This document shows, in pieces, positions 12,395 to 64,000 of a stretch of DNA of 64,000 bases. The DNA lies in the NCBI GenBank assembly GCA_963678705.1, contig OY783204.1, positions 26,236,759 through 26,300,758 of the forward strand, written 5' to 3'. Source of the DNA: Panorpa germanica. Taxonomy: Eukaryota; Arthropoda; Insecta; Mecoptera; Panorpidae. The position numbers were made by a program, and so were the translations under genes. The notes under the pieces are model-generated. The model saw nothing but the letters and a program-made list of their open reading frames with translations. It was not told the origin of the DNA and searched no databases. Each line of letters starts with the position of its first letter. Position 1 is the stretch's first letter.

Positions 12395-14741
12395 CTAGTT
12401 GTCTCCGCCTTCCTGTGGTTCATCTCCATCTCCTTGTGTGTCGGAGGTCCACAGTGTGAGGTTATCTCGCAGCAGCTGCATAATGAGGGTGGAGTCTTTG
12501 TACGAATCCTCATTCAATGTGTCGAGTTCTGCTATCGCATCATCGAATGCCTAAATTAAAATACAAATTATGTTAAAACTTATTTTGTTATTAAAAGATT
12601 ATATTATGTTAGGACAGGCGGGCAGACATACTGGTGGTTGGGATGTTAGAATGTCAATAATAAATAATACATAGCACGTTGTTATATCACACAAAGAAAA
12701 CATGTCGAAAATGGCTGTTAGTATGTACTCACGAAATATCTTTGATGTTAGTATATAATATATTGGATAAATACTAATCTACAAAATAATTAATGCAATA
12801 CAGTGCATTCCCAGAATAATTGTAGACCTGTTTAGCTAGATGGCAGGCTCTTGCCGGAGAGTTGATGATTTCGTAGTAGAAGACGGAGAAATTCAATGCC
12901 AACCCTAATCTGATTGGGTGTGTCGGTTGCATCTTGGCCTTCGCAATATCGAATGCTTCTTGGTATGCTTTTTGGGAGTCTTCCACCACAGCTATCATTA
13001 AAATTATCAAAATTTACCAAAACGATCATACAAATATAATTAACAATTTATACATTCCAACCATCAATATCAAAAACAAATAACTGCATCAGCTCTGCCC
13101 GCCTGCTGTAAAAAATATTGATTATTAACCTGTTTAGCGAGTTGACATGCTTTGTCTGGTGAGTTTAATATCTCATAATAGAATACGGAGAAGTTCAGGG
13201 CGAGTCCCAATCTGATGGGATGTGTAGGTTGCATTTTGGCCTTACTGATTTCAAACGCATCTTGGTATGCCTTTTGGGAGTCATCTACGACAGCTAAAAG
13301 TTAGTAAACCATTCATAAAATATAACAAAATAATGTATTTCATTAAAGGAAACTCCTGGAGACCAAAACATAATCAATACAAAACAGACATAAGTTTTAT
13401 AAATACTTTAAATTGAACTTACTATTGCGTGTTTCGCCCGTTGCAACCTCTGCAAGATACCTGTAGTAATCTCCTTTCATCTTTAGGTAGAATACCTTAC
13501 TTTCAGCATTACTTGCCTTAGGGATGAGGTATTTATCAAGGAGACCCTAAAATGGAAATAATCTTAATTCATTTGCTGTTTAAAAAAAGATTCTTATTTC
13601 TAACAAGTTAAGTAGTTGGGCAACAATTTTTGAAGTACGCAATTAACTTAACCACACCCAAATTAAAATATTTTACAATTAAAATAATAATATAATTAAT
13701 ATATTATTTAATTCACGTTAAAAATGACGCATGTTTTATGTTGTATTCATAAAAACACTTACATCACTGCTAGATTTGGCAAACCAAGAAGGTACAACTC
13801 ATGACGTCACACTATAGACAGTGGGTGGGGGTACACTCCATTCAAAATTTATAGTGATTGTAAGTAACAAATTAATATTATTTCATTCAATATAAAAATC
13901 ATTTACGTTGTTGAATTAAAAGGTGTGTATTGTTTCCTGGGTGTGTATGCGTAATAACAAAAAAATGTTTAAGTAATAAAAATAACGTAGAAATAAACAG
14001 TAATCATATTACGAGTGAAATATGCGTATGCAGACGATCGGATCGGATTGAATCGTTAAGTAAAATTGATATCCATTTTTAGATGGAAAAATACTTTATA
14101 CAATAAAGCGTATATCAGAAAACAAACAAAGCTATAGTTATCAAGCAAGGTAAACTTTAAAAGTAATGCAGTAGTGCTGCAGTAAATAAGTATTGATCTT
14201 TGTATCCGCAATTGCAACGCATAAAGGACAAGGCCATCGACCGCATTTAATATTAAACAGTGAATTTTATTTCAGTCGACATTTTTATGCAATTAAAAAT
14301 AGCCATCAGTATAAATAGAGTTTGATGCTCACTTAAAGCTCAGTGCAAAATCACCGGTTAGCACAATTTCCTCACAGGCCATTTACTAATTTGCTATATT
14401 TACGAAATCAAATGACAAGACTGATGGAGAAGACTTACCAATACATCATAGCATATTTCTCTTAGTTCTTTCTCTACTTTTTCTCTGTACTCCTTTGCCA
14501 TTTGTTGTTTTCTTTCAGAGCCCTCTGTTTTTTGTTCAATTGATGAGATAACTCTCCATGATGATCGGCGTGCTCCAACAACATTCTTGTAGGCTACAGA
14601 CAGAAGATTTCTCTCTTCGTTTGATAATTCGACGCCAGTCTCAGTGACGGATTTCATCGCCGCAGCCATATCATCATACCTCTCTGCCTGCTCTGCAAGC
14701 TTAGCGCGTTGCACCAACTCTTCTTTATCGACAGTGGACAT
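12395..14741 (-). CDS. 14-3-3zeta: 14-3-3 zeta adaptor protein, 248 aa, with two interchangeable exons
   Basis: This is a phosphoserine/phosphothreonine-binding dimeric adaptor of signalling proteins (Raf, Cdc25 and others) in the cytosol. Minus-strand exons are 14439-14741, 13423-13546, one of 13130-13293 or 12828-12991, and 12395-12550. The frame closes at 249 codons. All nine-helix landmarks are present: the groove residues Lys52 and Arg59 (in [15 protein letters not shown]) and Arg130-Tyr131 (in [11 protein letters not shown]), the [21 protein letters not shown] block, and [16 protein letters not shown] near the C-terminus. An AG acceptor just upstream (14783-14784) shows that the leader is spliced. 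Alternative versions of the same exon also exist in Drosophila 14-3-3zeta (family knowledge). Confidence 0.97.
12828..12991 (-). other. 14-3-3 zeta alternative exon 3b (164 bp)
   Basis: It encodes [19 protein letters not shown] through [11 protein letters not shown], the same length and phase as 3a. The 164-bp length (3n+2) makes double inclusion frame-breaking. The donor GTCTAC is weak, fitting regulated use. Confidence 0.88.
13130..13293 (-). other. 14-3-3 zeta alternative exon 3a (164 bp)
   Basis: It encodes [19 protein letters not shown] through [11 protein letters not shown]. It is bounded by TTTTAG and GTTAAT. It matches the commonest animal version of this segment (helices 6-7). Confidence 0.9.
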
Positions 14742-31859: not shown

Positions 31860-33625
31860 TTAAATTCATAGACATTTCTTTCTAGAGAAAATTTAGGATC
31901 TTTGAAAACTTTTAATACAGTTATATCCACTAAACTTTAAGAAGACGAACTTTGTTAAAAGGATTGAAATATTTCAACATTTGTGGATTTTATAAGGGTT
32001 TCTAAAAATTCATGGACTTTTTTTAAAAAAAAAATAATTATTGATTTCTTAATATCTTTTGATGCAGTTATATGCTTTAGGCTTTAAGAAGACGAACTGT
32101 CTTAATAAATTTGAAATATACCAACATTTGTGGATTTTATAAGGGTTTCTAAAAATTCATGGACTTTTTTTTCAAAAAAAATAATTATTGATTTCTTAAT
32201 ATCTTTTGATGCAGTTATATGCTTTAGGCTTTAAGAAGACGAACTGTGTTAATAAATTTGAAATATACCAACATTTGTGGATTTTATAAGGGTTTCTAAA
32301 AATTCATGGACTTTTTTTTTCAAAAAAAAAAATTATTGATTTCTTAATATCTTTTGATGCAGTTATATGCTTTAGGCTATAAGAAGACGAACTGTGTTAA
32401 TAAATTTGAAATATACCAGCATTTGTGGATTTTATAAGGGTTTCTAAAAATTCATGGACTTTTTTTTTCAAAAAAAAAAAATTATTGATTTCTTAATATC
32501 TTTTGATGCAGTTATATGCTTTAGGCTATAAGAAGACGAACTGTGTTAATATATTTGAAATATACCAGCATTTGTAAATTTTATAAAGGCTTCTAAAAAT
32601 TCATGGACTTTTTTTTTAAAAAAAATAATTATTGATTTATTAATATCTTTTGATGCAGTTATATGCTTTAGGCTTTAAGAAGACGAACTGTGTTAATAAA
32701 TTTGAAATATACCAACATTTGTGGATTTTATAAGGGTTTCTAAAAATTCATGGACTTTTTTTTTCATAAAAAAAATTATTGATTTCTTAATATCTTTTGA
32801 TGCAGTTATATGCTTTAGGCTATAAGAAGACGAACTGTGTTAATAAATTTGAAATATACCAGCATTTGTGAATTTTATAAAGGCTTCTAAAAATTCATGG
32901 ACTTTTTTTTCAAAAAAAATAATTATTGATTTCTTAATATCTTTTGATGCAGTTATATGCTTTAGGCTTTAAGAAGACGAACTGTGTTAATAAATTTGAA
33001 ATATACCAACATTTGTGGATTTTATAAGGGTTTCTAAAAATTCATGGACTTTTTTAAAAAAAAAAGAAAATTATTGATTTCTTAATATCTTTTGATGCAG
33101 TTATATGCTTTAGGTTTTAAGAAGACGAACTGTGTTAATAAATTTGAAATATACCAACATATGTGGATTTTATAAGGGTTTCTAAAAATTCATGGACTTC
33201 TTTTTTCAAAAAAAAATTTATTGATTTCTTAATATCTTTTGATGCAGTTATATGCTTTAGGCTTTAAGAAGACGATCTGTCTTAATAAATTTGAAATATA
33301 CCAACATTTGTAAATTTTATAAGGGTTTCTAAAAATTCATGGACTTTTTTTTCAAAAAAAATAATTATTGATTTCTTAATATCTTTTGATGCAGTTATAT
33401 GCTTTATGCTTTAAGAAGACGAACTGTGTTAATAAATTTAAAATATACCAACATTTGTGGATTTTATAAGGGTTTCTAAAAATTCATGGACTTTTTTTTC
33501 AAAAAAAAAAATGAATGATTTCTTAATTTTTTTTGATACAGTTATATCCTTTTAGCTTTAAGAAAACGAACTGTGTCAATAAATTTAAAATATCTCAATT
33601 TTTGTGGACTTTATAAGATTTTTAA
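31860..33625 (+). repeat. Satellite array, left arm: about 12 tandem 147-bp units
   Basis: The anchor GAAGACGAACTG recurs at 31941, 32088, 32235, 32383 and onward to 33562, a period of 147-148 bp. Each unit holds CTTTTGATGCAGTTATATGC, AAATATACCAACATTTGTGG, TAAGGGTTTCTAAAAATTC and an A/T homopolymer junction. The first and last units are diverged. Confidence 0.95.
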
Positions 33626-33639
33626 AATGTAAAATATTT

Positions 33640-36055
33640 TTTATAAAACCCTTCTAAAATCCACAAAACTGTAGATATTTCAAATCTGTTAAAACAGTTC
33701 GCCTTCTTAAACCTTAACGGATATAACTGCATCAAAAAATATTAGGAAATCAATAATTTTACTTTTTGAAAAAAAAGTCCATGAATTTTTAGAATCCCTT
33801 ATAAAATCCAAAATAGTTAAAATATTTGAAATTTTTTAATGCAGTTCGTCTTCTTAATTATAAATGAATATAACTGCATCAAAAAATATTAAGAAATCAA
33901 TAATTTTTCTTTTTGAAAAAAAAGTCCATGAATTTTTAGAATCCCTTATAAAATCCAAAATAGTTAAGATATTTTAAATTTTTTAATGCAGTTCGTCTTC
34001 TTAATTATAAATGAATATAACTGCATCAAAAAATATTAAGAAATCAATAATTTTTCTTTTTGAAAAAAAAGTCCATGAATTTTTAGAATCCCTTATAAAA
34101 TCCAAAATAGTTAAAATATTTTAAATTTTTTAATGCAGTTCGTCTTCTTAATTATAAATGAATATAACTGCATCAAAAAATATTAAGAAATCAATAATTT
34201 TTCTTTTTGAAAAAAAAGTCCATGAATTTTTAGAATCCCTTATAAAATCCAAAATAGTTAAAATATTTGAAATTTTTTAATGCAGTTCGTCTTCTTAATT
34301 ATAAATGAATATAACTGCATCAAAAATTTAAGAAATCAATAATTTTTCTTTTTGAAAAAAAAGTCCATGAATTTTTAGAATCCCTTATAAAATCCAAAAT
34401 AGTTAAGATATTTTAAATTTTTTAATGCAGTTCGTCTTCTTAAATATAAATGAATATAACTGCATCAAAAAATATTAAGAAATCAATAATTTTTCTTTTT
34501 GAAAAAAAAGTCCATGAATTTTTAGAATCCCTTATAAAATCCAAAATAGTTAAGATATTTTAAATTTTTTAATGCAGTTCGTCTTCTTAATTATAAATGA
34601 ATATAACTGCATCAAAAAATATTAAGAAATCAATAATTTTTCTTTTTGAAAAAAAAGTCCATGAATTTTTAGAATCCCTTATAAAATCCAAAATAGTTAA
34701 GATATTTTAAATTTTTTAATGCAGTTCGTCTTCTTTATTATAAATGAATATAACTGCATCAAAAAATATTAAGAAATCAATAATTTTTCTTTTTGAAAAA
34801 AAAGTCCATGAATTTTTAGAATCCCTTATAAAATCCAAAATAGTTAAGATATTTTAAATTTTTTAATGCAGTTCGTCTTCTTTATTATAAATGAATATAA
34901 CTGCATCAAAAAATATTAAGAAATCAATAATTTTTCTTTTTGAAAAAAAAGTCCATGAATTTTTAGAATCCCTTATAAAATCCAAAATAGTTAAAATATT
35001 TGAAATTTTTTAATGCAGTTCGTCTTCTTAATTATAAATGAATATAACTGCATCAAAAAATATTAAGAAATCAATAATTTTACTTTTTGAAAAAAAAGTC
35101 CATGAATTTTTAGAATCCCTTATAAAATCCAAAATAGTTTAAATATTTGAAATTTTTTAATGCAGTTCGTCTTCTTAATTATAAATGAATATAACTGCAT
35201 CAAAAAATATTAAGAAATCAATAATTTTACTTTTTGAAAAAAAAGTCCATGAATTTTTAGAATCCCTTATAAAATCCAAAATAGTTTAAATATTTTAAAT
35301 TTTTTAATGCAGTTCGTCTTCTTAAATATAAGTGAATATAACTGCATCAAAAAATATTAAGAAATCAATAATTTTTCTTTTTGAAAAAAAAGTCCATGAA
35401 TTTTTAGAATCCCTTATAAAATCCAAAATAGTTAAGATATTTTAAATTTTTTAATGCAGTTCGTCTTCTTAATTATAAATGAATATAACTGCATCAAAAA
35501 ATATTAAGAAATCAATAATTTTTCTTTTTGAAAAAAAAGTCCATGAATTTTTAGAATCCCTTATAAAATCCAAAATAGTTAAAATATTTTAAATTTTTTA
35601 ATGCAGTTCGTCTTCTTAATTATAAATGAATATAACTGCATCAAAAAATATTAAGAAATCAATAATTTTTCTTTTTGAAAAAAAAGTCCATGAATTTTTA
35701 GAATCCCTTATAAAATCCAAAATAGTTAAAATATTTGAAATTTTTTAATGCAGTTCGTCTTCTTAATTATAAATGAATATAACTGCATCAAAAAATATTA
35801 AGAAATCAATAATTTTTCTTTTAGAAAAAAAAGTCCATGAATTTTTAGAATCCCTTATAAAATCCAAAATAGTTTAAATATTTTAAATTTTTTAATGCAG
35901 TTCGTCTTCTTAATTATAAATGAATATAACTGCATCAAAAAATATTAAGAAATCAATAATTTTTCTTTTTGAAAAAAAAGTCCATGAATTTTTAGAATCC
36001 CTTATAAAATCCAAAATAGTTAAGATATTTTAAATTTTTTAATGCAGTTCGCAGT
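33640..36055 (-). repeat. Satellite array, right arm: about 17 tandem 147-bp units in opposite orientation
   Basis: The complement of the left-arm unit: CAGTTCGTCTTCTT recurs every 147 bp from 33694 to 36044 (for example 33841, 33988, 34135). Units within this arm are nearly identical to each other but form a different subfamily from the left arm (ATTATAAATGAATATAACTG against the left arm's GGCTTTAAG region). The array stops abruptly at about 36050. Confidence 0.95.
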
Positions 36056-50356: not shown

Positions 50357-52130
50357 TGATTTGATATATAAAAATAATAATTAAATCCTTTTATTTATGT
50401 TATGTAAAAACTATATCATATTATTCAGTATTATTTTCATTCCAGTTTATTTATAATAATTCTTCGAGGTCTTAATTTTGGATACTAAGACTTACCTAGC
50501 ACACACTGCGTAATAAATTCATCTCAGTTTCTATGCAGTACTTTACTCGGCCAAAAAATTGTTGTATTTATATATCTTGTTAATCTTGTCGAAAGAGAAA
50601 CGCCGACAACAGCATGAGAGTGTCTTCATTCAACTATATGTTCTACAAAAAAAAAATAACGAAAACAAATCTCTGTGCCACAGTGAATTTTGTAGAAATC
50701 TATAGATTTGTTTTTGCGTAGAATTAAAACCTTTGGTGTGTTCATGTTCAATTTACTATGTCTCTTTGCAATATGTAGATAAAAGATGAAATATTTCCTT
50801 TGTAGATTTAAACTTGTCATGAACGAATTAATTAAAAAGAATTTCTTACTAGATAGACCCGGGCATGATTCGTTGTAGATTAAATGAATGGGAAAATAAA
50901 TAAAAGACACACATGCAAACACAGACGAAAACGCAGACGACGATTAACTGAAGAAACGAAAGACGCGCGTGTTCGAATGCAACGTTATGTCAAAGTTTCA
51001 AGACAATCGACGAGCTCAAACATATGTATACCGAATTTTTATATATAAAGATAAACATCGGAGATGGCAGTACACAAATAGAGAGCCTCGACTAAGTAAT
51101 GTTCTGACTTTATAAATGCTTAAAAAGTTTTCTTTATAATTACAAGAATCCGCATGTGAAAAAGTCGTTTTATGATTTTAATAGCAATAAAATAGGCCAC
51201 GTGTTAATAAAGTGTGCCTTTTGCACCGATTACCTGAAAAAAAGACCCCGCTGTCAAGCTAGCAAGTAGTTATACGTTCTTAACTACATACCATACTATT
51301 TATTCTCGAAATATCAGATTTGTTAAAACGGCGTAGGTCTGGGGCGCTGGGATCTTACTCTAACAGTAGCGATCAACGGTAACAACCTGATCATTACCAT
51401 GATTACTAATTTACAACCTGACTCTGACATGGGCCGTAAGCCATGAGCCTGTTTCGTTTTCTTCTGACGTATAAACACACCTCCAGAGCGTGCCGCCTAC
51501 GCCGCAGGCTTGAATAAATAAAGTTATATTTAAAAAACTAGAGCTAAACTATTGAATAAATATGTACAAGTAAATGCTTATAGAATGTGAAAAAAGAACT
51601 CGATGACCTTGCAGTAGTGTGCATAAGGACGCAATTACACAATTTCAAATTTATAATCCTGATCACAAGTAACTAAGAATTAATTTGTATTACTTGGTAG
51701 TTATATTGTAAAAAAACAACTAAAATAATTATCCTGATAGCAGATAGATTTTCAATGGGCTTGTGCCTTTTGAAAATCATTTTTTGAATATTTGAGGATG
51801 TGATAGCCAACTTTATCAATATACATATAGTACAGTTTTATATAAATTAAAACAATTAAATGTTTATTGCTTTACTTTTTTACAAAATCAAGATCTTAAT
51901 GAATATTACAATTAGAAATATTTTTATCACACAATAATTAGGTCTGTAATTTCAAATTCCTTAAAAAAATCTGCCAATTCATACTTTCAATTAATTTTAG
52001 AGCAAGTGCATCTCATGGAGTACATTTCATGACAAAGTTTGAAGGGGAAAGTAAAGAAGGGCGCGCCATTACATTACATTCCGTTCCGTTCAATATGAAT
52101 GTGTGCCCGACATCTGATAGCACTAGAATT
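50357..52130. other. Spacer between CP5 and CP6
   Basis: AT-rich. A GC-richer block at about 51330-51520 could be an old repeat. A fragment of element B lies at 51757-51860. No gene. Confidence 0.45.
51757..51860 (+). mobile_element. Element B, fragment (copy 4)
   Basis: It starts GGGCTTGTG and then jumps to the distal part shared with copy 1 (TTTGAGG, CCAACTTTATCAATATA, TAGTACAGTTTTATA). An internally deleted copy. Confidence 0.5.
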
Positions 52131-52137
52131 AGATCGA

Positions 52138-52238
52138 AGGTCAATATTAGCGAATTGAGAATTCAGAGGTCCCCGTCGTAAGAGTCCGAAAGTAACAGTT
52201 TGTGTATATATAGTGAAACCCAATTCTAAATCATCACA
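52138..52238 (+). promoter_or_regulatory. CP6 core promoter with two AGGTC half-sites
   Basis: Distal TCGAAGGTCA (52138-52143 core), proximal AGAGGTCC (52167-52172 core), TATATATA (52205-52212) and initiator TCACA with A at 52236. Confidence 0.5.
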
Positions 52239-52259
52239 ATTCACTAACAGCTCACAGCA

Positions 52260-52286
52260 AGCGAGTACTGGAACTCCAGCAGCGCT
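52260..52286 (+). promoter_or_regulatory. CP6 leader hairpin element
   Basis: A 27-nt element identical to that of CP2; starts at about +25 from the presumed initiator. Confidence 0.55.
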
Positions 52287-52306
52287 AAAACAAAACAAAT
52301 ACCACC

Positions 52307-53230
52307 ATGAAGTTATTCGTAGTTCTCTCCGTCCTCGTCGCTGGTGCTGTCGCGTACCCCGGATACCTGGGATACGGACATGGACACGGACATGGTCTTC
52401 CCCAACAAGTTGCCGACACCCATGAAGTAGCTGCCGCCAAGGCACAACACTTCGCAGCTGTTGCCGCCGCACAAGCACACTCTGGTGCCGGTGCAGGACA
52501 CTACGCCGTCGCTGGACATGAAGACGATGGTCAATACCGTGGTGAAGGTGCCCATTACGATGGACATTATGCTGGACACTACGATGATGGTCAATACCGT
52601 GGAGAAGGCAGCCACTACGCCGGACAATACGCTCATGGAGCCGTTGCCGTTCTTGCTCCAGGACAAGACACCCATGAAGTAGCCGCCGCTAAAGCACAAC
52701 ACTTTGCCGCCGTCGCCGAAGCCAAAGCCCAACAATCCGCCCTAGGACACTATGGTGGACATTATGCTGGACAATACTCCGGACATGAAGACGATGGTCA
52801 ATACCGTGGAGAAGGCGCTCACTATGCTGGACAATACGCTGGACATTATGCTCATGGAGCCGTTGCCGTTCTTGCCCCAGGACAAGATACCCATGAAGTA
52901 GCTGCCGCTAAAGCTCAACACTTTGCCGCTGTCGCTGCCGCTCAATCTGCTGCCGGTGCAGGACACTACGCCGTCGTAGGACATGAAGATGATGGCCAAT
53001 ACCGTGGAGAAGGTGCCCATTACGATGGACATTATGCTGGACAATACTCCGGACATGAAGACGATGGTCAATACCGTGGAGAAGGTGCTCACTACGCTGC
53101 ACACTACGCACATGGACCCGTTGTCGTTCTTGCTCCAGGACAAGACACCCACGAAGTTGCTGTAGCTAGAGCACAACACCTCGCTGCCCACGCCGCTGCT
53201 CTTCATGGAGCAGTAGGACACCATTATTAG
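52307..53230 (+). CDS. CP6: secreted cuticle protein with 18-residue motifs, 307 aa
   Basis: Near-identical to CP2: same signal peptide MKLFVVLSVLVAGAVA, four motifs, the same EDDGQYRGEG spacers and GAVGHHY end. Differences seen: one extra His-Gly pair and Leu for Val before PQQV, Arg for His in one spacer, Val for Ala and Ala for Gly further on. Single exon; poly(A) signal 53279-53284. The identity extends into the leader up to the initiator but fades upstream of TATA. Confidence 0.93.
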   Translation: MKLFVVLSVLVAGAVAYPGYLGYGHGHGHGLPQQVADTHEVAAAKAQHFAAVAAAQAHSGAGAGHYAVAGHEDDGQYRGEGAHYDGHYAGHYDDGQYRGEGSHYAGQYAHGAVAVLAPGQDTHEVAAAKAQHFAAVAEAKAQQSALGHYGGHYAGQYSGHEDDGQYRGEGAHYAGQYAGHYAHGAVAVLAPGQDTHEVAAAKAQHFAAVAAAQSAAGAGHYAVVGHEDDGQYRGEGAHYDGHYAGQYSGHEDDGQYRGEGAHYAAHYAHGPVVVLAPGQDTHEVAVARAQHLAAHAAALHGAVGHHY

Positions 53231-53284
53231 ATTTGAAATTTGCTTTTCCCTGATTTTCTCTAGTGTACATATAGAATTAATAAA

Positions 53285-54436
53285 ATAACATCTTTGAATA
53301 TAAACACCTGTTTTTTTTAAATGTTCTTCGTCCATAAATTTCAACAGAAATAAAAATAAATATGGTATTCATTACAAAAATATTTAAGAATTATCATTGA
53401 CTTATAACTAATTGACTCTTTTTATTTTTACATCCTACGCTAATATTTATAATATTGTTAATAATTATCGTAGAATTATATGAAATTTATTTAATTAGCA
53501 AATAGTTTCTTTTGTAAAATGATATCAAAGTTAGTTAATTATTTTATTTATTTATGAAATATTATTTCCAATATTTCTATGTATAGTGTCATTCATTTAC
53601 GAATTTTCTACTCGTTCGTAAATTGGAAATATGCGAGTATTCTTATCAACCAAAGGTAAATGTCAATTTTATGATATGTAAAATTATAATTTGTTTTATA
53701 TATCTTATAATTAGATGTTAAACTTATCTGGTAATCAATGCTGTTGATTTTTTATTCCTTTTTAATTAAAAAAATTTTACTTACTACATTTAGAACAAAA
53801 ATACTCAGTAATGAACTTTAGTTTCGATTTCTGAAGTACATTGTTAAATAAACACCGTTATAATAAGTAATTACAAAAAGTGTTTGATAATATTATTGTA
53901 ATTTAAAGCATATTTTAGTATAAAAGAAAAGTTTAGCTAAAACTTAAATAAGTTAATGATATTGAGATCCAAAATGACTGTATAATGTTTTTCTAATTAT
54001 TACTTTGTAATATATAAATAAATATCATGAATATTTGAACAAGAATAATGATTAAAATTAAAATTTAATTATGTATATGTTTATTAAGTTCTGTATTAAT
54101 AAAAGTAAATTTACATAAAAAGAATAAATGTTTTATAAGATTCTTATTTTATCGTTTATATATAAATTAAATTTATTAAGTTAAGAAAATTGTTTTTTAT
54201 TATATCTGTAACAATATTTGCTTATATAAAATTTGAAGATTTTGTTGCAACTAAAAATGGAAGTGTTGTACCTGAAACAAACCAAATTTATTTAGACTCT
54301 ATTCATTCATTTTAATAAATATAAAATATTTTCTTATCAGAATTTACTTTGAATAATATTGATATCCACTCTCTGAATTTAGTGTCTCAATTTGAATTCA
54401 GTAAAATATTCTTTATTGTATTATTATTTTTACTTG
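53285..54436. other. AT-rich intergenic stretch
   Basis: No open frame or repeat I can support. Confidence 0.5.
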
Positions 54437-54481
54437 TTATCTTGTTATCTGAAAACTATCTGGCTGATTGTGGCTCCACAG
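54437..54481 (-). CDS. Possible terminal exon of an unidentified minus-strand gene
   Basis: After acceptor TATTTGCAG the frame reads LWSHNQPDSFQITR and stops. In phase 0 it would follow the exon at 56029-56160. The evidence is only the acceptor and phase; it may be chance. Confidence 0.25.
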   Translation of the reverse strand: MWSHNQPDSFQITR

Positions 54482-54769
54482 CTGCAAATAATATAAGAGA
54501 TTGCAATTATTAAACAATGATTTATCAAATATATTATGTATATATCATACCTTTTATGAAACTGGCATAATTCACATGCAAACCAATGTATCTGTTTAAA
54601 ATCTCGCATCAACTAAATTACGTGGTTTAGAAGAAGAATTATGTCTAAAAGTAAGATAAAATACAATCATAAACTTTTTCGAATAAAATAAATACAGTTA
54701 AGACTAAGAGTTTATAATTAATTAAATATAAGAAATTAACCCTTTTTATATTTCAAATATTTTTAAAAT

Positions 54770-55830
54770 GGGCGCCACGTTTCTAACAATGTCATCCATA
54801 TTGAATTTAAAATTTGAACTCGCAGAGTAAGCATTATTGAATTTTGAAATATATTTTGTGTTAAAAAAAGGGATTTCTAAATTGTAAAAAGTGGTTGTGT
54901 TTATAATTAACAGTTTAAAGTTTTATTTAAGATATTAATTAAGTAGTAAAACGTATTTTTTATGATAATAAATGTGTATAAATGACAACGTACAATGACA
55001 GCAACAGGTGAGAAAAAACTATCTTTTCTACATAATAATTCAACCAAAATATTATTGTAAGCTCAAAAATGTAATCCTAGACATAAATAAATACTTAATG
55101 AGCCATTTTGAGCATATACTTAAAATATGCTATTATGAATTATAACCTCAGATCTGGAACTAAAAATTTTAGTGTCCGCCATTTTACTTTTTATATTTCA
55201 AATCGTTTAGCTGCCCCATTTTATAATTACGTCTGCCATTTGAAAGTTGGGCGTCTCTTACTTAAGTTTCTTAGAATTTTAAAATATATTAATGTGTTAG
55301 AAAATGTGCTTTTTAAAACGTAAAATATAGTTGAATTTATAAATAAGAATCTAAAGATTTATTTAAGATATTAATATTTCATAAACCGTGTTTCTTATAA
55401 ACAATAAATGTGTGTGAATGACAATCTACTATCTCATGCAACAGGTATGCAAATGTTTTCCTTTTTACATAATAATTCATCATATATCCCAACAAAACAT
55501 AATCAAAACATTCTTGTAAACCCAACAATGTAATAGTAGATATAAATTAATTAGTAATAATCCATTTTGACCTATTATGAATTATAACCTCACAGCTGAA
55601 AACCGTTGATCTAAATCAATTTAAATTTATAATCAACGCTGTGACATGTACGATAGTTTAGTTTTCTTTTAAAATCGAAAAGCAAATCAATTGTAAAAGT
55701 AATAGGAATCTAAAGTTTTATTTTAAAAATGTACTTATACTCAAAACATTTTTCGGGCTATATATTGTGTATATGACAAATGATGTTCGGCATCTGAATT
55801 TGCGCAATAAAAAAATAACATTGAATAGTA
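54770..55830 (+). repeat. Diverged tandem duplication, about 2.5 units
   Basis: An ordered set of marks recurs: CTAAAG.TTTATTTAAGATATTAA, AATAAATGTGTATAAATGACAA, CAACAGGT, ACATAATAATTCA, and TTATGAATTATAACCTCA. Starts at about 54910, 55348 and 55706 (spacings 438 and 358). It sits in the intron of the possible minus-strand gene. Confidence 0.55.
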
Positions 55831-56028
55831 AAGTTGCAGTTTACAATAGAAAAGCATAACAAATAAATCTTTGTTTTTGGGGATTAACAAAATCATAAAT
55901 CTTGTTAAAAAGAAATGTTTGATGTACCTGTTATAAATTAATAAGATTATCTTTATAATCCGTTTTTAAAGAAAATTTAGACCTATCTAGATTACTTTTA
56001 CTACGTTTTAATTAAGTACATGACTTAC

Positions 56029-56160
56029 TTTTGCTTCTGTCAATGGTTGAAATTCAAATAGTGTAATTTGTGAGCTTCTTAGTAAAATATATTGTCCAGT
56101 TTTTAATTTGCTGTCGATTTCAAAAGATAGTTCCACAACATCTCCTCGTTGTGTAATTGC
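56029..56160 (-). CDS. Orphan coding exon, 44 codons
   Basis: A minus-strand exon with acceptor GTTTTTAG and donor GTAAGT (56028-56023), exactly 132 nt, open only in phase 0. The peptide contains RGDVVELSFEIDSKLK and then TGQYILLRSS and LFEFQPLTEAK, which looks like genuine globular protein. I do not recognise the family. A donor CAG|GTAAGA near 56755 and an ATG-bearing block at about 56505-56575 (MDLAVHLV) may be upstream exons, but their phase does not fit, so the gene model is incomplete. Confidence 0.5.
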
Positions 56161-57529
56161 CTAAAAACATAACTAATATTAAAATAATAAATAAGTATTT
56201 TAATTTCACGCTATTGAATTTATTTATTTACTTGCTTTGGGATTATAGTATCACATTTACATTTCAATGTAGTCTACTGCGCTAATAAATAATACCTGCG
56301 GTGGCTAAATCCAACCCTAAAATATAAATTAAAATATGTCTTATTTAGCAATTAGTTTTGTTTACTTCATATATACCGAAAGGCTACTGTTATATCAGTC
56401 ATTGATCAGAGTTGATTAAACTATCTATAAATATTCATGCATTTACCAAACCTTTTAACTTCACTTTTTTATAACGATATCACAGTATATCTAATCAAAG
56501 AATCCCGACATTACGAACGAGGTGAACCGCCAAATCCATGTCCACTGAGACGAGTCAGAAACCTCTGAAAGATCATAGACATTAAAACATCTCAACTTCC
56601 ATAAACAAAATTATGAATAAAATCACTTGGTTCATCGATTTCATATTTAACTAATTCGCTTCATATGGTGAATAGCTAATTTAGTACATTAACAGTATAA
56701 AAGAAATCTCAATAAAATAGGTCTTTTTAATATCAAAAATAATCTTACCTGTCTTTGATACGTTGCACAATTTAGTTCGTTTTGTTTATAGATATAAACC
56801 TTTGCAAAATTAATCGCAATTGATGAGGTTTTTGATGTCAGTTAATAGGCAATATTTAATTAAATTATTTGAAATAAAAATATATATTCTGCAGTCTGAA
56901 CTCTTAAGTATTACGTTGACTATTTACATTTTTATTATAACCATGTTTTTACCTGTTGCTATATTATTATATTTTTAAAGCGCATGCGCAAAAGTATTTT
57001 GAGTTACGATTTATTTCTTTAGGCCTAACACGCCCTGCGAAGAAATATCACTTAGAAAAAAAGTACGCAATTTTTATCCATGCAAATATAAAATCACAAG
57101 TGCGATATTGTTCATATGATTAAATATGTTACAGGATTTGTGATTTTCTCGCCGTTTTTTATGCAGTGGGGATAGGTCTTAGAATTCACTGCTCTAAAAT
57201 AAATATAAATCCCTACTTTTATTTTTATGTGTTTCTTTTAGCCAATGGTCGGTCTTTGGGCAAGGATACAAATATCTTTCATCCCTTTTGTTAGCTGGGC
57301 TACATTGTACACACACACACAGGACACATACATCGTTCTATTCAACTTACGTGTATGCATTGGCTAAACAATCATGCGATTCATGTTTCGAAACATCGTA
57401 TTATATGTATCTTTTTAAATTAGCATAGTCTGACCTTGATTTTAAATTTTTGAAGTATTTTACTTAAGAAAAATGTAATAATATTAAATTTAAAAAAGTC
57501 TAAGTAAGAGAGGTATTTAGATATTGTTG
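56161..57529. other. AT-rich stretch with possible leader exons
   Basis: It holds the uncertain minus-strand exon candidates near 56505-56575 and 56755-56860, and a short (AC)n tract near 57308-57320. Nothing else supportable. Confidence 0.4.
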
Positions 57530-57730
57530 TACTTAAAAAGGTCTTCTTAAAAAGTTTTATGATTATGTTAATGGTCAAAAGATAATATTTAAAACATATA
57601 TATAATAGCTATAAACCTTAAGTAGACGAAATGCGTTTACCGTGATATTTTATAAAAATAAATAACATATAGGACATAATCGCAGTAATTCTGTGTTTAG
57701 GAAATAACCAATACATTTCGGTATAAAATG
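57530..57730 (+). repeat. Dispersed repeat family C, copy 5
   Basis: It contains GTCTTCTTAAAAAGTTTTAT, GATTATGTTAATGGTCAAAA and TTCTGTGTTTAGGAAA, parallel to copy 1. It lies immediately left of the exon array. Confidence 0.45.
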
Positions 57731-57811
57731 AACACAGTGACCTCTATCTCGGAGGTACTGATATATTTTGGAAAATATGATAATTTTAATGAGCTTTTTT
57801 TGTTATTACAG

Positions 57812-60800
57812 ATGTTTTACCGGTGTTTGCAAAGTTCTTATCATTGAAGAAAACACTTCTATTTAAGAATAGATTATTGTGCAAGTGTCGGGTTTGCATA
57901 GACTTTGTGTAGTGATTAGTGAAAATGCATTGTGAATTATTTAAATCAGGAAGGATTATTGCAGTTCCTGACCTCGCAGAAGACATCGTGCACTAGGACG
58001 TAATTAGGGAGGTAATCATCTAATTAACAAATCCTTTCTTTTCCTTTTACATTTCAATAGACTTGTAAAATATCTTAACGAATTATCTTTTGTTCCAGAC
58101 TTAAAATGAACAATTAATTTGGACATGTGCAAGTGTCGCGATGCATAGACTTTGTGTAGTGCAGTGCTTAGTGAAAGTGCATTGTGAATTATTTAAATCA
58201 GGAAGGATTATTGCAGTTCCTGACTTCGCAGAAGATAACGGAAATGCATGGAGGCGTCCGGCTAGGAAAATTAAAAAAGGTAATATTCCAAAATAATCTC
58301 ATATATCGAGTATAGAAATTTGTTTTATTTTAACGGAAATAAACTAATTGTAATCTTAACTATTTATTTCTCTTGTTTTAGGCTCACATCAGGTTTCTAC
58401 AGCAGTAACAATGAGTCCTAAGTAAGTGGAACTTATTTCTAAGCATGGCCCCGCCCCACTAACTGAAAAATTACTTTGCAGAGTCTTGACAATTTTTATT
58501 ATGGAAATGTTTATTAATCTTAAGAGATATTGGAGTCTGTTTCAGATATGCGTCAGACATCGTGCACTGGGACATAATTAGAGAGGTAACAATCTAATTA
58601 ACAAATTCTTTCTTTTCCATTTCAATAGACTTGTAAAATATCTTAACGAATTATCTTTTGTTCCAGACTTAAAATGAACAATTAAATTGGACATGTGCAA
58701 GTGTCGCGTTGCATAGACTTTGTGTAGTACAGTGTTTAGTAAAAGTGTAGTGTGAATTATTTAAATCAGGAAGGATTATTGCAGTTCCTGACTTCGCAGA
58801 AGACATCGTGCACTAGGACGTAATTAGAGAGGTAATCATCTAATTAACAAATTCTTTCTTTTCCTTTTACATTTCAATAGACTTGTAAAATATCTTAACG
58901 AATTATCTTTTGTTCCAGACTTAAAATGAACAATTAAATTGGACATGTGCAAGTGTCGCGTTGCATAGACTTTGTGTAGTGCAGTGTTTAGTGCAAGTGC
59001 AGTGTGAATTATTTAAATCAGGAAGGATTATTGCAGTTCCTGACCTCGCAGAAGATACCGGAAACGTATGGAGGCATCCGGCTTTAGGAAAATTAAAAAA
59101 AGGTTAATATTCCAAACTAATCTCACATATCGAGTATAGAAATTTATTTTATCTTAACGGAAATAAACTAATTGTAATCTTAACTATTTATTTCTCTTGT
59201 TTTAGGCTCACATCAGGTGCCACAGCTGTAACAATGAGCCCCAAGTAAGTGGAACTTATTTCTAGGCATGGCTCCGCCCAATTAACTGAAAAATTACTTT
59301 GCAGAGTCTTGACAATGTTTATTATAAAAATGATTATTAATCTTAAGAGATATTGGAGTCTGTTTCAGATAAGTGCCGGAGACTCAAGGCTTCTTCAAGA
59401 TGGATTTCTGTTTGATGTTGCCGCCTAAGATTTTAAAAGATAATTGGGAGTACCCTAGGTGACTAAAGAAGGATTGAGATTAAAATAAAGGTAATAATAA
59501 GTTGTAGTTTTTCATCTAATTATTGATTAGTTTTAATTTCATGTTTTCTGTAAATGTAATGCTCTTTCTTTCTTTCTTACAGATTGAAGAAAAATAGCCG
59601 GACTCTTGGATCAGCCTACCTACTTATGAGTAGTTACTTGGATTTCCTTCTTTTAAATAAAAGTAAATATACCATTTAATTTTTTATTATTGTGATTTAT
59701 TATTGAATTTATATTCGTTAATATTTTAATTTTATGAAACTTTTTATTTATAACAGATTTTTCTATCTGGGTTTTGGTCCATTGCTACAGCTGTAAAAGA
59801 ATTTCCGGACTCTTGGATCAGCCTACCTACTTATGAGGAGTTATATTTATTTCCTTTTTTTAAATAAATGTAAATGTAATTTTATTATTGCTATTTATAA
59901 AGGTTAATTTATATTTGATAATGTTTTAATTTCAATATGGTTTTTCTTTATTACAGATTTTTTTTATCAGGGTTCTGCTGCATTGCTGTTGTAACGAATA
60001 TCCGAACTATTCGAGCAGCCTACCTGCCTATGGGGATGCATTCTGATTATTTGTGTAGTGCAGTGTTTAGTGATAGTGCAGTGTGAATTATTTAAATCAG
60101 GAAGGATTAATGCAGTTCCTGACCTCGCAGAAGACATCGTGCACTAGGACGTAATTAGAGAGGTAATCATCTAATTAACAAATTCTTTCTTTTCCAATTC
60201 AATAGACTTGTAAATGATTTTAACGAATTATCTTTTGTTCCAGACTTAAAACCAACAATTAAATTTGGACACGTGCAAGTGTCGCATTTGCACAGACTTT
60301 GTGTAGTGCTCAAGGTTCCTCCAAGATGGATTTCTTTTTGATGTTGTTGCTTAATATTTAAAAAGACTGAGGAAGGAATGAGATTAAAATAAAGGTATGA
60401 ATTTGTTGTACTATTTCATCTGATCACTGACAGTTTTATTTGTTCTTTGATTAAATTGGTTAAAATATAATTTCCACATATTGATATTAGTTTTAATTTC
60501 ATGTTTTCTGTAAATATAATGCTCTTTATTTCTTACAGATATTTTTAGGGGTTACTGGAACAATAGCCGGACTCTTGGATCAGCCTACCTACTTATGAGA
60601 AGTTATTTTCATTTCTTTTTTTTAAATAAATGTAAATACAACATATTTAATTATTGCGATTTATAATTGAATTTATATTTGTAAATATTATAATTTTAAA
60701 ATGGTTTTTCTTTATTACAGATTTTTTTATCAGGGTTCTGCTGTTTTGTAACGAATTTCGGAACTTTTGGAACAGCTTACCTGCCTATGGGGAGTCATTT

Positions 60801-60905
60801 TGATTTTCTTTTTCAAAATAAATGTAAATATTAATTTTCATATTTTGTGATTGAGTTTTTTTTCTTGTTATTATTATAATTTTAAAATGATTTTCCTTCT
60901 TACAG
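57812..60905 (+). repeat. Exon-array duplication unit 1
   Basis: Blocks 1-14. Block order matches unit 2. The offset to the partner is 3312-3330 bp for blocks 2-4 and 3061-3077 bp from block 6 on, because block 5 with its intron (about 252 bp) is present only here. Confidence 0.8.
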
Positions 60906-63900
60906 ATTTATTTCAGGATCCTGCTGCATTGCTGTTGTAACGAATTTCCTAACTTTTGAAGCAACCTACCTGCCTATGGGGAGGCATTCTGATGCTTTCT
61001 GTAGTGCAGTGCAGTGATTAGTGAAAGTGCATTGTGAATTATTTAAATCAGGAAGGATTAATGCAGTTCCTGACCTCGCAGAAGACATCGTGCACTAGGA
61101 CGTAATTGGAGAGGTAACCATCTAATTTTCAATTTCTTTTATTTCCATTTCAATATCAATAGATTTGTAAATGATTTTAATGAATTATCTTTTGTTCCAG
61201 ACTTAAAACGAACAATTAAATTGGACATGTGCAAGTGTCGCGTTGCATAGACTTTGTGTAGTGCAGTGTTAATTATTTAAATCAGGAAGGATTATTGCAG
61301 TTCCTGACCTCGCAGAAGACATCGTGCGCTAGGACGTAATTAGAGAGGTAACCATCTAATTAACAAATTCTTTCTTTTCAATTTCAATAGACTTGTAAAA
61401 TATCTTAACGAATTATCTTTTGTTGCAGACTTAAAATGAACAATTAAATTGGACATGTGCAAGTGTCGCGTTGCATAGACTTTGTGTAGTGCAGTGTTAA
61501 TTATTTAAATCAGGAAGGATTATTGCAGTTCCTGACTTCGCAGAAGATACCGGAAACGCATGGATGCATCCGGCTTTAGGAAAATTAAAAAAAGGTAATA
61601 TTCTAAATTAAAATCATATATCGAATATAGAAATTTAATCTATTTTAATATAAGTAAACTTATTGTAATCTTAACGATTTCTTTCTCTTGTTTTAGGCTC
61701 ACATCAGGTGCTACAGCTGTAACAATGAGTCCTAAGTAAGTGGAACTTATTTCTAAGCATGGCCCTACCGCACTAAATGAAAAATTACTTTGCAGAGTCT
61801 TGACAATGTTTATTATGGAAATGATTATTAATCTTAAGAGATATTGGAGTCTGTTTCAGATATGCGTCAGACATCGTGCACTGGGACATAATTAGAGAGG
61901 TAACCATCTAATTAACAAATTCTTTCTTTTCCTTTTACATTTCAATAGACTTGTAAAATATCTTAACGAATTATCTTTTGTTGCAGACTTAAAATGAACA
62001 ATTAAATTGGACGTGTGCAAGTGTCGCGTTGCATAGACTTTGTGTAGTGCAGTGTTTAGTAAAAGTGCAGTGTGAATTATTTAAATCAGGAAGGATTATT
62101 GCAGTTCCTGACCTCGCAGAAGATACCGGAAACGTATGGAGGCATCCGGCTTTAGGAAAATTAAAAAAAGGTTAATATTCCAAACTAAAATCATATATCG
62201 AGTATAGAAATTTAATTTATTTTAACGGAAATAAACTAATTGTAATCTTAACTATTTATTTCTCTTGTTTTAGGCTCACATCAGGTGCCACAGCTGTAAC
62301 AATGAGCCCCAAGTAAGTGGAACTTATTTCTAGGCATGGCTCCGCCCAATTAACTGAAAAATTACTTTGCAGAGTCTTGACAATGTTTATTATGGAAATG
62401 ATTATTAATCTTAAGAGATATTGGAGTCTGTTTCAGATAAGTGCCGGAGACTCAAGGCTTCTTCAAGATGGATTTCTGTTTGATGTTGCCGCCTAAGATT
62501 TTAAAAGATAATTGGGAGTACCCTAGGTGACTAAAGAAGGATTGAGATTAAAATAAAGGTAATAATAAGTTGTAGTTTTTCATCTAATTATTGATTAGTT
62601 TTAATTTCATGTTTTCTGTAAATGTAATGCTCTTTCTTTCTTTCTTACAGATTGAAGAAAAATAGCCGGACTCTTGGATCAGCCTACCTACTTATGAGTA
62701 GTTACTTGGATTTCTTTTAAATAAAAGTAAATATACCATTTAATTTTTTATTATTGTGAATAATAATTGAATTTATATTCGGTATTATTTTAATTTTATG
62801 AAACTTTTTATTTATAACAGATTTTTCTATCAGGGTTTTGGTCCATTGCTACAGCTGTAAAAGAATTTCCGGACTCTTCGATCAGCCTACCTACTTATGA
62901 GGAGTTATTTTGATTTCCTTTTTTTAAATAAATGTAAATGTAATTTTATTATTGCTATTTATAAAGGTTAATTTATATTTGATAATATTTTAATTTCAAT
63001 TTGGTTTTTCTTTATTACAGATTTTTTTCAGGATCCTGCTGCATTGCTGTTGTAACGAATTTCCGAATATTTGGAGCAGCCTACCTGCCTATGGGGACGC
63101 ATTCTGATTATTTGTGTAGTGCAGTGTTTAGTGAAAGTGCAGTGTGAATTATTTAAATCAGGAAGGATTATTGCAGTTCCTGACCTCGCAGAAGACATCG
63201 TGCACTAGGACGTAATTAGAGAGGTAATCATCTAATTAACAAATTCTTTCTTTTCCAATTCAATGGACTTGTAAATGATTTTAACGAATTATTTTTTGTT
63301 CCAGACTTAAAACCAACAATTAAATTTGGACACGTGCAAGTGTCGCATTTGCACAGACTTTGTGTAGTGCTCAAGGTTCCTCCAAGATGGATTTCTTTTT
63401 GATGTTGCTGGTTAATATTTAAAAAGACTGAGGAAGGAATGAGATTAAAATAAAGGTATGAATTTGTTGTACTATTTCATCTAATCACTGACAATTTTAT
63501 TTGTTCTTTGATTAAATTGGTTAAAATATAATTTCCACATATTGATATTAGTTTTAATTTCATGTTTTCTGTAAATATAATGCACTTTATTTCTTACAGA
63601 TTTTTTTAGGGGTTACTGGAGTGTTTACTCTATTGAAGAACAATAGCCGGACTCTTGGATCAGCCTACCTACTTATGAGGAGTTATTTTCATTTCTTTTT
63701 TTTAAATAAATGTAAATATAACATATTTTATTGCGATTTATAATTGAATTTATATTTGTAAATATTATAATTTTAAAATGGTTTTTCTTTATTACAGTTT
63801 TTTTTATCAGGGTTCAGTTGCATTGCTGTTGTAATGAATTTCGGAACTTTTGGAGCAGCCTACCTGCCTATGGGGAGTCATTTTGATTTTCTTTTTCAAA

Positions 63901-64000
63901 ATAAATGTAAATATTAATTTTCATATTTTGAGATTGAGTTCTTTTTTTGTTATTATTATAATTTTAAAATGATTTTCCTTCTTACAGATTTATTTCAGGA
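60906..64000 (+). repeat. Exon-array duplication unit 2 (and start of a third)
   Basis: Blocks 15-28, homologous in order to unit 1. The block starting at 63988 is homologous to 60906 (offset 3082), so a third unit appears to begin at the window's end. Confidence 0.8.

Follow-up and report, generated by a model that had tools for sequence, protein, structure and literature searches.

What keeps dozens of splice junctions in a stretch of DNA that has no coding capacity? This question is raised by a tandem array at positions 57812-64000 of a 64,000-nucleotide (nt) window, i.e., the whole stretch analysed here, from the mecopteran Panorpa germanica (GenBank assembly GCA_963678705.1, contig OY783204.1, here C1; C1:26236759-26300758 of a 464-Mb genome). 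An initial annotation had described the array as a single, tandemly amplified multi-exon noncoding RNA locus. The array is composed of exon-like blocks and introns, has no coding capacity, belongs to a dispersed family and has conserved splice sites. A slight preference is given to the explanation that it is a large member of a noncoding multi-exon family that would be transcribed and spliced; judged from its sequence, production of a long, spliced noncoding RNA with repeated exons from the + strand is probable.

Splice-site architecture of the array

The + strand of the array carries 29 acceptors and 28 donors in strict alternation and without exception. They tile the whole stretch, leaving no repeat copy unparsed, with introns of 60-144 nt and exon-like blocks of 39-208 nt. 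The splice sites were located by patterns written after the sequence had been read, and their count alone is therefore no test. Scoring with an approximate insect-type acceptor matrix reveals 24 sites above a score of 5 on the + strand and 0 on the - strand, against a shuffle mean of 3.4 (maximum 10), i.e., a roughly sevenfold excess, and at most 8 on either strand in each of 26 equally long, overlapping windows elsewhere. Above a score of 4, the numbers are 38 on the + and 5 on the - strand, with a shuffle mean of 6.8 (maximum 15) and at most 16 in the other windows. This strand-specific excess, together with the alternating sites, agrees with the initial annotation, which had counted about 29 acceptor-bearing blocks in 6.2 kb. 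The G+C content is 37.1% in the exons and 22.2% in the introns, which contain 46% T.

The claim that most blocks end in a strong GT donor is only half borne out: GT is present at all 28 donors, but only four read GTAAGT and only two pass the donor threshold. The others are GTAAAT (eight), GTAATC, GTAATA, GTAACC or GTAACA (12 together), GTTAAT (two) and GTATGA (two). A GTTAAT donor apparently serves the 14-3-3 gene elsewhere in the window as well, as judged from a junction deduced from the protein. Branch-point-like YTNAY motifs occur in 23 of the 28 introns; they are not claimed as branch points, because the motif is also present in 60% of 33-mers drawn at random from the region. Folding in 80-nt windows shows no excess that would indicate microRNA-like hairpins (mean z -0.11 on the + strand, -0.19 on the - strand and -0.05 in the control). 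A hairpin of 7 bp lies in exon A and a stem of 6 bp in exon B; by eye, the changes in the latter are one-sided only, and it is not claimed.

The array is itself repetitive. Its introns fall into five families of 8, 4, 4, 4 and 8 copies, and its closest long pair is a higher-order unit on the + strand with 95.8% identity between copy 1 (58801-60918) and copy 2 (61869-64000), the latter cut by the window edge. The 29 blocks thus do not represent 29 independent events. Block types follow one another in a recurring but varied order, and exchange within exons is evident from chimeric blocks (C-A, C-D, A-D and E3-A). Within the intron families of the window, no GT or AG substitution is seen, compared with about 10 expected from the lengths of the family trees; one donor type carries a one-base insertion, with GT still present. 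Over 15 pairwise alignments, which overlap and are therefore non-independent, 412 of 5327 exon positions and 373 of 3503 intron positions differ, but none of the 162 junction dinucleotide positions.

Coding capacity and known RNA classes

The initial annotation had reported stops in every frame and excluded a repeat protein, and this holds. The three spliced frames of the array contain 78, 81 and 74 stops (233 in total), and the longest open reading frame (ORF) in a splice graph of all exon-skipping paths has 174 amino acids (aa), inside the 88-213 aa spanned by 30 shuffles. Three virtual spliced products of the array have no match in Pfam, and the spliced parse of a related array on contig C21 (C21b, see below) contains 701 stops.

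Spaced C and D boxes, as expected for small nucleolar RNAs (snoRNAs), are present in 0 of 28 introns, and Rfam gives no match at E ≤ 1 in 57600-64000. An exact 20-21-mer search of viral and bacterial collections returned no relatives, and six sequence strings sought in papers were present in none. No insect family of this kind was found in the literature searched, most subscription journals being outside that search. Thus, the array is neither a snoRNA host nor a coding repeat, nor is it a plain satellite: the junctions are conserved and most copies of its module lie outside tandem arrays, as described next.

A dispersed family of units

A pattern spanning exon B and the donor of intron C, with at most three mismatches, matches the genome 81 times (reversed control: 0), and the exon-B donor GT is intact in 81/81. 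After merging matches within 50 kb, the family occupies at least 40 loci on 16 contigs. Thirty units lie in four arrays, on C1 at 26.3 Mb (the array described here) and 29.55 Mb (C1b) and on C21 at 7.81 Mb (C21a) and 41.32 Mb (C21b), while 51 are dispersed; one more unit, on C13, was found only in a similarity search and is not among the 81. The genome similarity searches, each with 40 of 102-120 candidates scored, revealed related places on many contigs. The notion of a single locus therefore has to be abandoned. The array is noncoding, tandemly amplified and coherent in its splice architecture, as the initial annotation had it, but it is one member of a dispersed family. By strict patterns, C21b contains 79 exons across 18.2 kb and C21a 43, compared with only 11 in C1b, whose copies deviate more often; alignment recovers 72 introns in C21a, 84 in C21b and 36 in C1b.

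The dispersed unit is approx. 0.7 kb long. It starts with exon A and an intron B of about 100 nt, continues with exon B (40 nt) and a short intron C, for which there are two possible acceptors at a distance of 65 nt, and closes with a last exon that ends in AAATAAAG, followed by GT. In an alignment of ten units from nine loci, these parts always come in the same order, with exon C/D last.

Conservation of splice sites in dispersed units

The rates of change were compared in 32 units, comprising 19 units from 11 fetched dispersed loci and 13 units from the best-scoring places of the genome search. Terminal changes per site amount to 2.08 in exon A, 2.31 in intron B, 0.90 in exon B, 0.96 in intron C and 1.80 in exon C, the last of which would be an intron if the distal acceptor is used. 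The eight junction sites show 2 changes, both terminal, where the intron rate predicts 14.7 terminal and 2.6 internal ones. Likewise, the junction GT or AG is broken in 2 of 160 cases, compared with 151 of 982 for other GT and AG dinucleotides in the same units (Fisher 1e-8, the copies being non-independent), and in 2 of 128 when the distal acceptor, which was recognised afterwards, is left out. The initial annotation had argued that a satellite would not keep dozens of junctions. This reasoning is supported insofar as the splice dinucleotides are kept beyond their surroundings, but a repeat also has its share in the explanation: the family has at least 40 loci and was dispersed at least partly beside an abundant interspersed repeat.

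Both junction losses concern the proximal acceptor of intron C, while the AG of the distal acceptor, 65 nt further on in TCTGTTTCAG, is intact in 32/32 units, which suggests alternative 3' splice sites at intron C. The clearest single signal is the donor of intron B, a run of unchanged bases amid a variable neighbourhood. Exon B, together with ~27 bases at the start of intron C, is conserved as a whole; this block also served as search bait, and its conservation may be exaggerated. When introns aligned over at least 75% are counted in all 15 searched stretches together, GT is found in 243/247 and AG in 242/247, some exceptions being alignment edges as judged by eye; the 11 dispersed loci among them contribute GT in 50/50 and AG in 47/50.

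Origin and spread of the units

Several dispersed units begin directly where an abundant interspersed repeat ends (L024:3146-3262). Its terminus, TAGCGTTTACCCCGTCGCAAAGCGACG or a part of it with mismatches, is the left end beside six of the 19 units of the fetched dispersed loci and is absent from the others; it also occurs at two places without a unit. The right ends of dispersed units are ragged. A 117-base query with the repeat terminus gave 1205 first-look candidates genome-wide, and among the 40 of these that were scored, four adjoin family units by coordinates, one being the query's own place. These data point to units that were carried by, or captured next to, the abundant repeat, and since several of them begin at its end, a transposon probably spread the dispersed units.

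The following scenario is proposed. A unit, situated at least in part beside or within the abundant repeat, would have spread to at least 40 loci and at four of them expanded into tandem arrays with extra E exons, probably by repeated unequal exchange. The array would then be transcribed from the + strand and its short introns removed, resulting in a long noncoding RNA of repeated modules. Selection appears to keep the splice signals and a core of about 67 nt, which comprises exon B with the 5' portion of the downstream intron, while most of the exon sequence drifts. The most likely product would be a spliced repetitive RNA that works via its repeated modules. A more far-reaching version, in which a transposon spread dozens of spliced noncoding RNA genes, each maintained on its own, and these expanded into giant exon arrays, with splicing and the exon-B/donor core under selection and the rest drifting, is unlikely.

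Alternative explanations

Several observations weigh against a transcribed and spliced array. Weak donors form the majority, above all in blocks of the E type, and the two copies of the 95.8% unit have equal exon and intron divergence (32/1192 and 22/875). The junctions of intron C sit in a generally conserved block, in which control GT and AG dinucleotides are broken in only 1/96 cases, and the independent signal therefore comes mainly from intron B. Taken alone, the exon-B donor is a weak witness (0 changes vs. 3.3 expected in 51 units), and the test of private changes is not significant with 19 units (1 vs. about 3.7), although it is clear with 32. Recombination with unsampled parents may place inherited variants on terminal branches, and for this reason the activity of each single dispersed unit cannot be asserted. 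A clean intron-less copy of a spliced transcript is absent from the 40 of 102 candidates that were scored. One possible retrocopy of this sort (C9:8674370-8674515), which joins exon B to exon C at 73%, was rejected, as the start of the intron is present there. Finally, exons A and C of the dispersed units change about as fast as intron B, and the RNA sequence itself is therefore largely unconstrained; as the junctions are kept while these exons drift, it looks as if splicing, rather than most of the exon sequence, is conserved.

The most serious competitor, though considerably less probable than a spliced noncoding RNA, is a transposon-derived interspersed repeat plus satellite, in which the signals stem from a once-spliced ancestor and the present copies are passive and yield no useful RNA. 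The occurrence at 40 or more loci, the coincidence of several left ends with the abundant repeat, the ragged right ends and exons that evolve like introns are all consistent with it. However, passive decay should strike GT and AG as often as other bases, which is at odds with 2 vs. about 15 changes on terminal branches and 0 vs. about 10 in the window, and the unit itself has no coding capacity of the kind that a mobile element needs. The arrays of Suppressor of Stellate yield small RNAs against Stellate, and the array could similarly be the precursor of PIWI-interacting RNA (piRNA)-like small RNAs, produced from one-strand transcripts and directed against dispersed relatives. Tandem arrays homologous to dispersed copies, two of them on the 48-Mb contig C21 with its odd place in the contig size order, would fit. 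The model has no need of conserved splicing, however, the units contain no recognised protein-coding target, and this explanation is considered improbable. Even less credit is given to two explanations that invoke a protein. Noncoding exons in an array that passes the window end could be alternative 5' leader exons of a gene further right, but the array ends near C1:26302977 and the next long ORF (C1:26303556-26304497) runs in the opposite direction. A decayed multi-exon protein gene could account for the 174-aa splice-graph ORF, for one frame open for about 70 codons across blocks 2-3, and for the one frame that is open across the aligned 116-192 nt in 7 of the 64 versions obtained by splicing dispersed units. 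That ORF is, however, within the shuffle range, the virtual products lack Pfam matches, and all frames contain stops in 31/32 dispersed units spliced at the proximal and 26/32 spliced at the distal acceptor. In the conserved C block, a tally of counts in the frame with an internal ATG further shows that the third codon position changes no more than the others.

Comparison with known systems

In the lncRNA (long noncoding RNA) Firre, a local repeat (RRD) supplies 7 of 13 human and 11 of 23 mouse exons (PMC4820808). In the array, repeat modules coincide with predicted exons of a putative noncoding RNA. It differs from Firre in that its introns are repeated along with the exons and its module is present at 40 or more loci, whereas Firre repeats are rare outside their locus (PMC4820808). 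SNHG14, the host of SNORD116 and SNORD115, contains tandem exon-intron units with 29 and 48 introns in one noncoding transcript (PMC11608373), and shares with the array the tens of tandem exon-intron units. In contrast to SNHG14, spaced C and D boxes and Rfam matches are missing from the array, as reported above. The array is thus a member of neither class, because the Firre repeats stay almost entirely within their locus and snoRNAs were not found here. A further parallel is Stellate and Suppressor of Stellate (PMC7874207), whose tandem arrays have homologues on other chromosomes, but no coding partner is recognised here and the junctions are conserved in the dispersed copies.

Block structure of the array

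All blocks are on the + strand and taken from the array parse. Block 1 (57812-58011) is of a leading E-to-A type, with a head as in the dispersed units. It is followed by block 2 of type A' (58099-58279), block 3 of type B (40 nt; 58382-58421), block 4 of type C with an A tail (58482-58585), block 5 of type A (58667-58831), block 6 of type A' (58919-59102), block 7 of type B (39 nt; 59206-59244) and block 8 of type C with a D tail (59305-59490). Blocks 9 (E1, 59583-59662), 10 (E2, 59757-59869) and 11 (E3 with an A tail, 59957-60162) precede block 12, which is of type A with a D tail (60244-60394), and blocks 13 (E1, 60539-60631), 14 (E2, 60721-60823) and 15 (E3 with an A tail, 60906-61113) precede block 16 of type A (61201-61347). 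Next come block 17 (A', 61429-61594), block 18 (B, 61697-61735), block 19 (C with an A tail, 61796-61899), block 20 (A', 61987-62170), block 21 (B, 62274-62312) and block 22 (C with a D tail, 62373-62558). The window closes with blocks 23 (E1, 62651-62726), 24 (E2, 62821-62933), 25 (E3 with an A tail, 63021-63223), 26 (A with a D tail, 63305-63455), 27 (E1, 63600-63711) and 28 (E2, 63798-63906), and with the start of block 29 (E3, 63988-64000), which goes on in stretch L009. On the left, a candidate upstream exon (57672-57754, +; donor identified by eye, position checked) ends in CTCGGAG, followed by GTACTG; its intron to 57811 would measure 57 nt. This candidate is conserved beside the C21b array, with 97% identity over 134 nt to stretch L015.

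Genomic context and other features of the window

As the initial annotation had anticipated, the array runs beyond the window edge, for about 2.2 kb. A sequence resembling a short interspersed nuclear element (SINE), with a hairpin and a TAAC-repeat tail, lies near its 3' end (L009:2838-3000; named by eye), and each of the other three arrays has the same sequence, minus the TAAC tail, close to its 3' end. The opposite-strand ORF past the array is cuticle-protein-like, and this gene is an inverted 98% copy of one at 52289-53230. The array is thereby flanked by near-identical (98%) inverted gene copies (52034-53357 and L009:3430-4752). The window contains a cluster of such cuticle-protein-like ORFs with the motif DTHEVAAAKAQHFAA; the single ORF tested has no Pfam match.

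Both C21 arrays share with the C1 array the cuticle-protein-like gene (95-96%) and about 4 kb upstream (88-91%), and because of this shared sequence the three are segmental duplicates. In the window, the upstream segment covers 53808-57671 (+); its longer pieces align to the C21 arrays at approx. 88-91%, and pieces at C1:29.55M at 70-90%. The C21 duplicates of gene, upstream sequence and array are about 33 Mb apart and in opposite orientation (stretches L016 and L029 at 7.8 Mb, L015 and L031 at 41.3 Mb). To the left of the arrays, identity between the two C21 copies is 97-98% for the greater part of what they share and about 91% in one piece, and the upstream segment is itself repeated two to three times on C21. 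C21 is outside the size order of the contigs seen. This place is the only hint that C21 may be a sex chromosome; TPI is on C10.

Pfam matches in the window comprise PFK, 14-3-3, SNF2 and ribosomal-L10-type pieces. The 14-3-3 gene (-) contains two versions of one exon stretch (12867-12920 and 13169-13222), like mutually exclusive exons. Two adjoining tandem arrays with a 147-bp period occupy 31909-33617 (11.6 copies, 93% matches) and 33649-36051 (16.4 copies, 97%); by eye, their units are partly reverse complements, pointing to a possible palindromic satellite with a nucleosome-length period. Elsewhere in the assembly, COX1 fragments in nuclear contigs (C5, C16, C1, C3, C21 and others) are probably mitochondrial insertions, and one pair on C5 (C5:24090483-24091020 and C5:24194136-24194673, ~104 kb apart) is apparently duplicated. 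The mitochondrial order is trnI-trnQ-trnM-nad2, with trnQ placed by ARAGORN and the others by eye; it differs from the arrangement of ditrysian Lepidoptera and speaks against that group as host.

Significance

If the RNA is made, a single spliced noncoding module would be present in P. germanica at least 81 times, distributed over 40 or more places, providing a natural experiment on which parts of a lncRNA are seen by selection. The family would then link transposon dispersal, the growth of exon arrays and constraint on splice sites. If no RNA is made, it would serve as a warning that repeats can retain splice signals.

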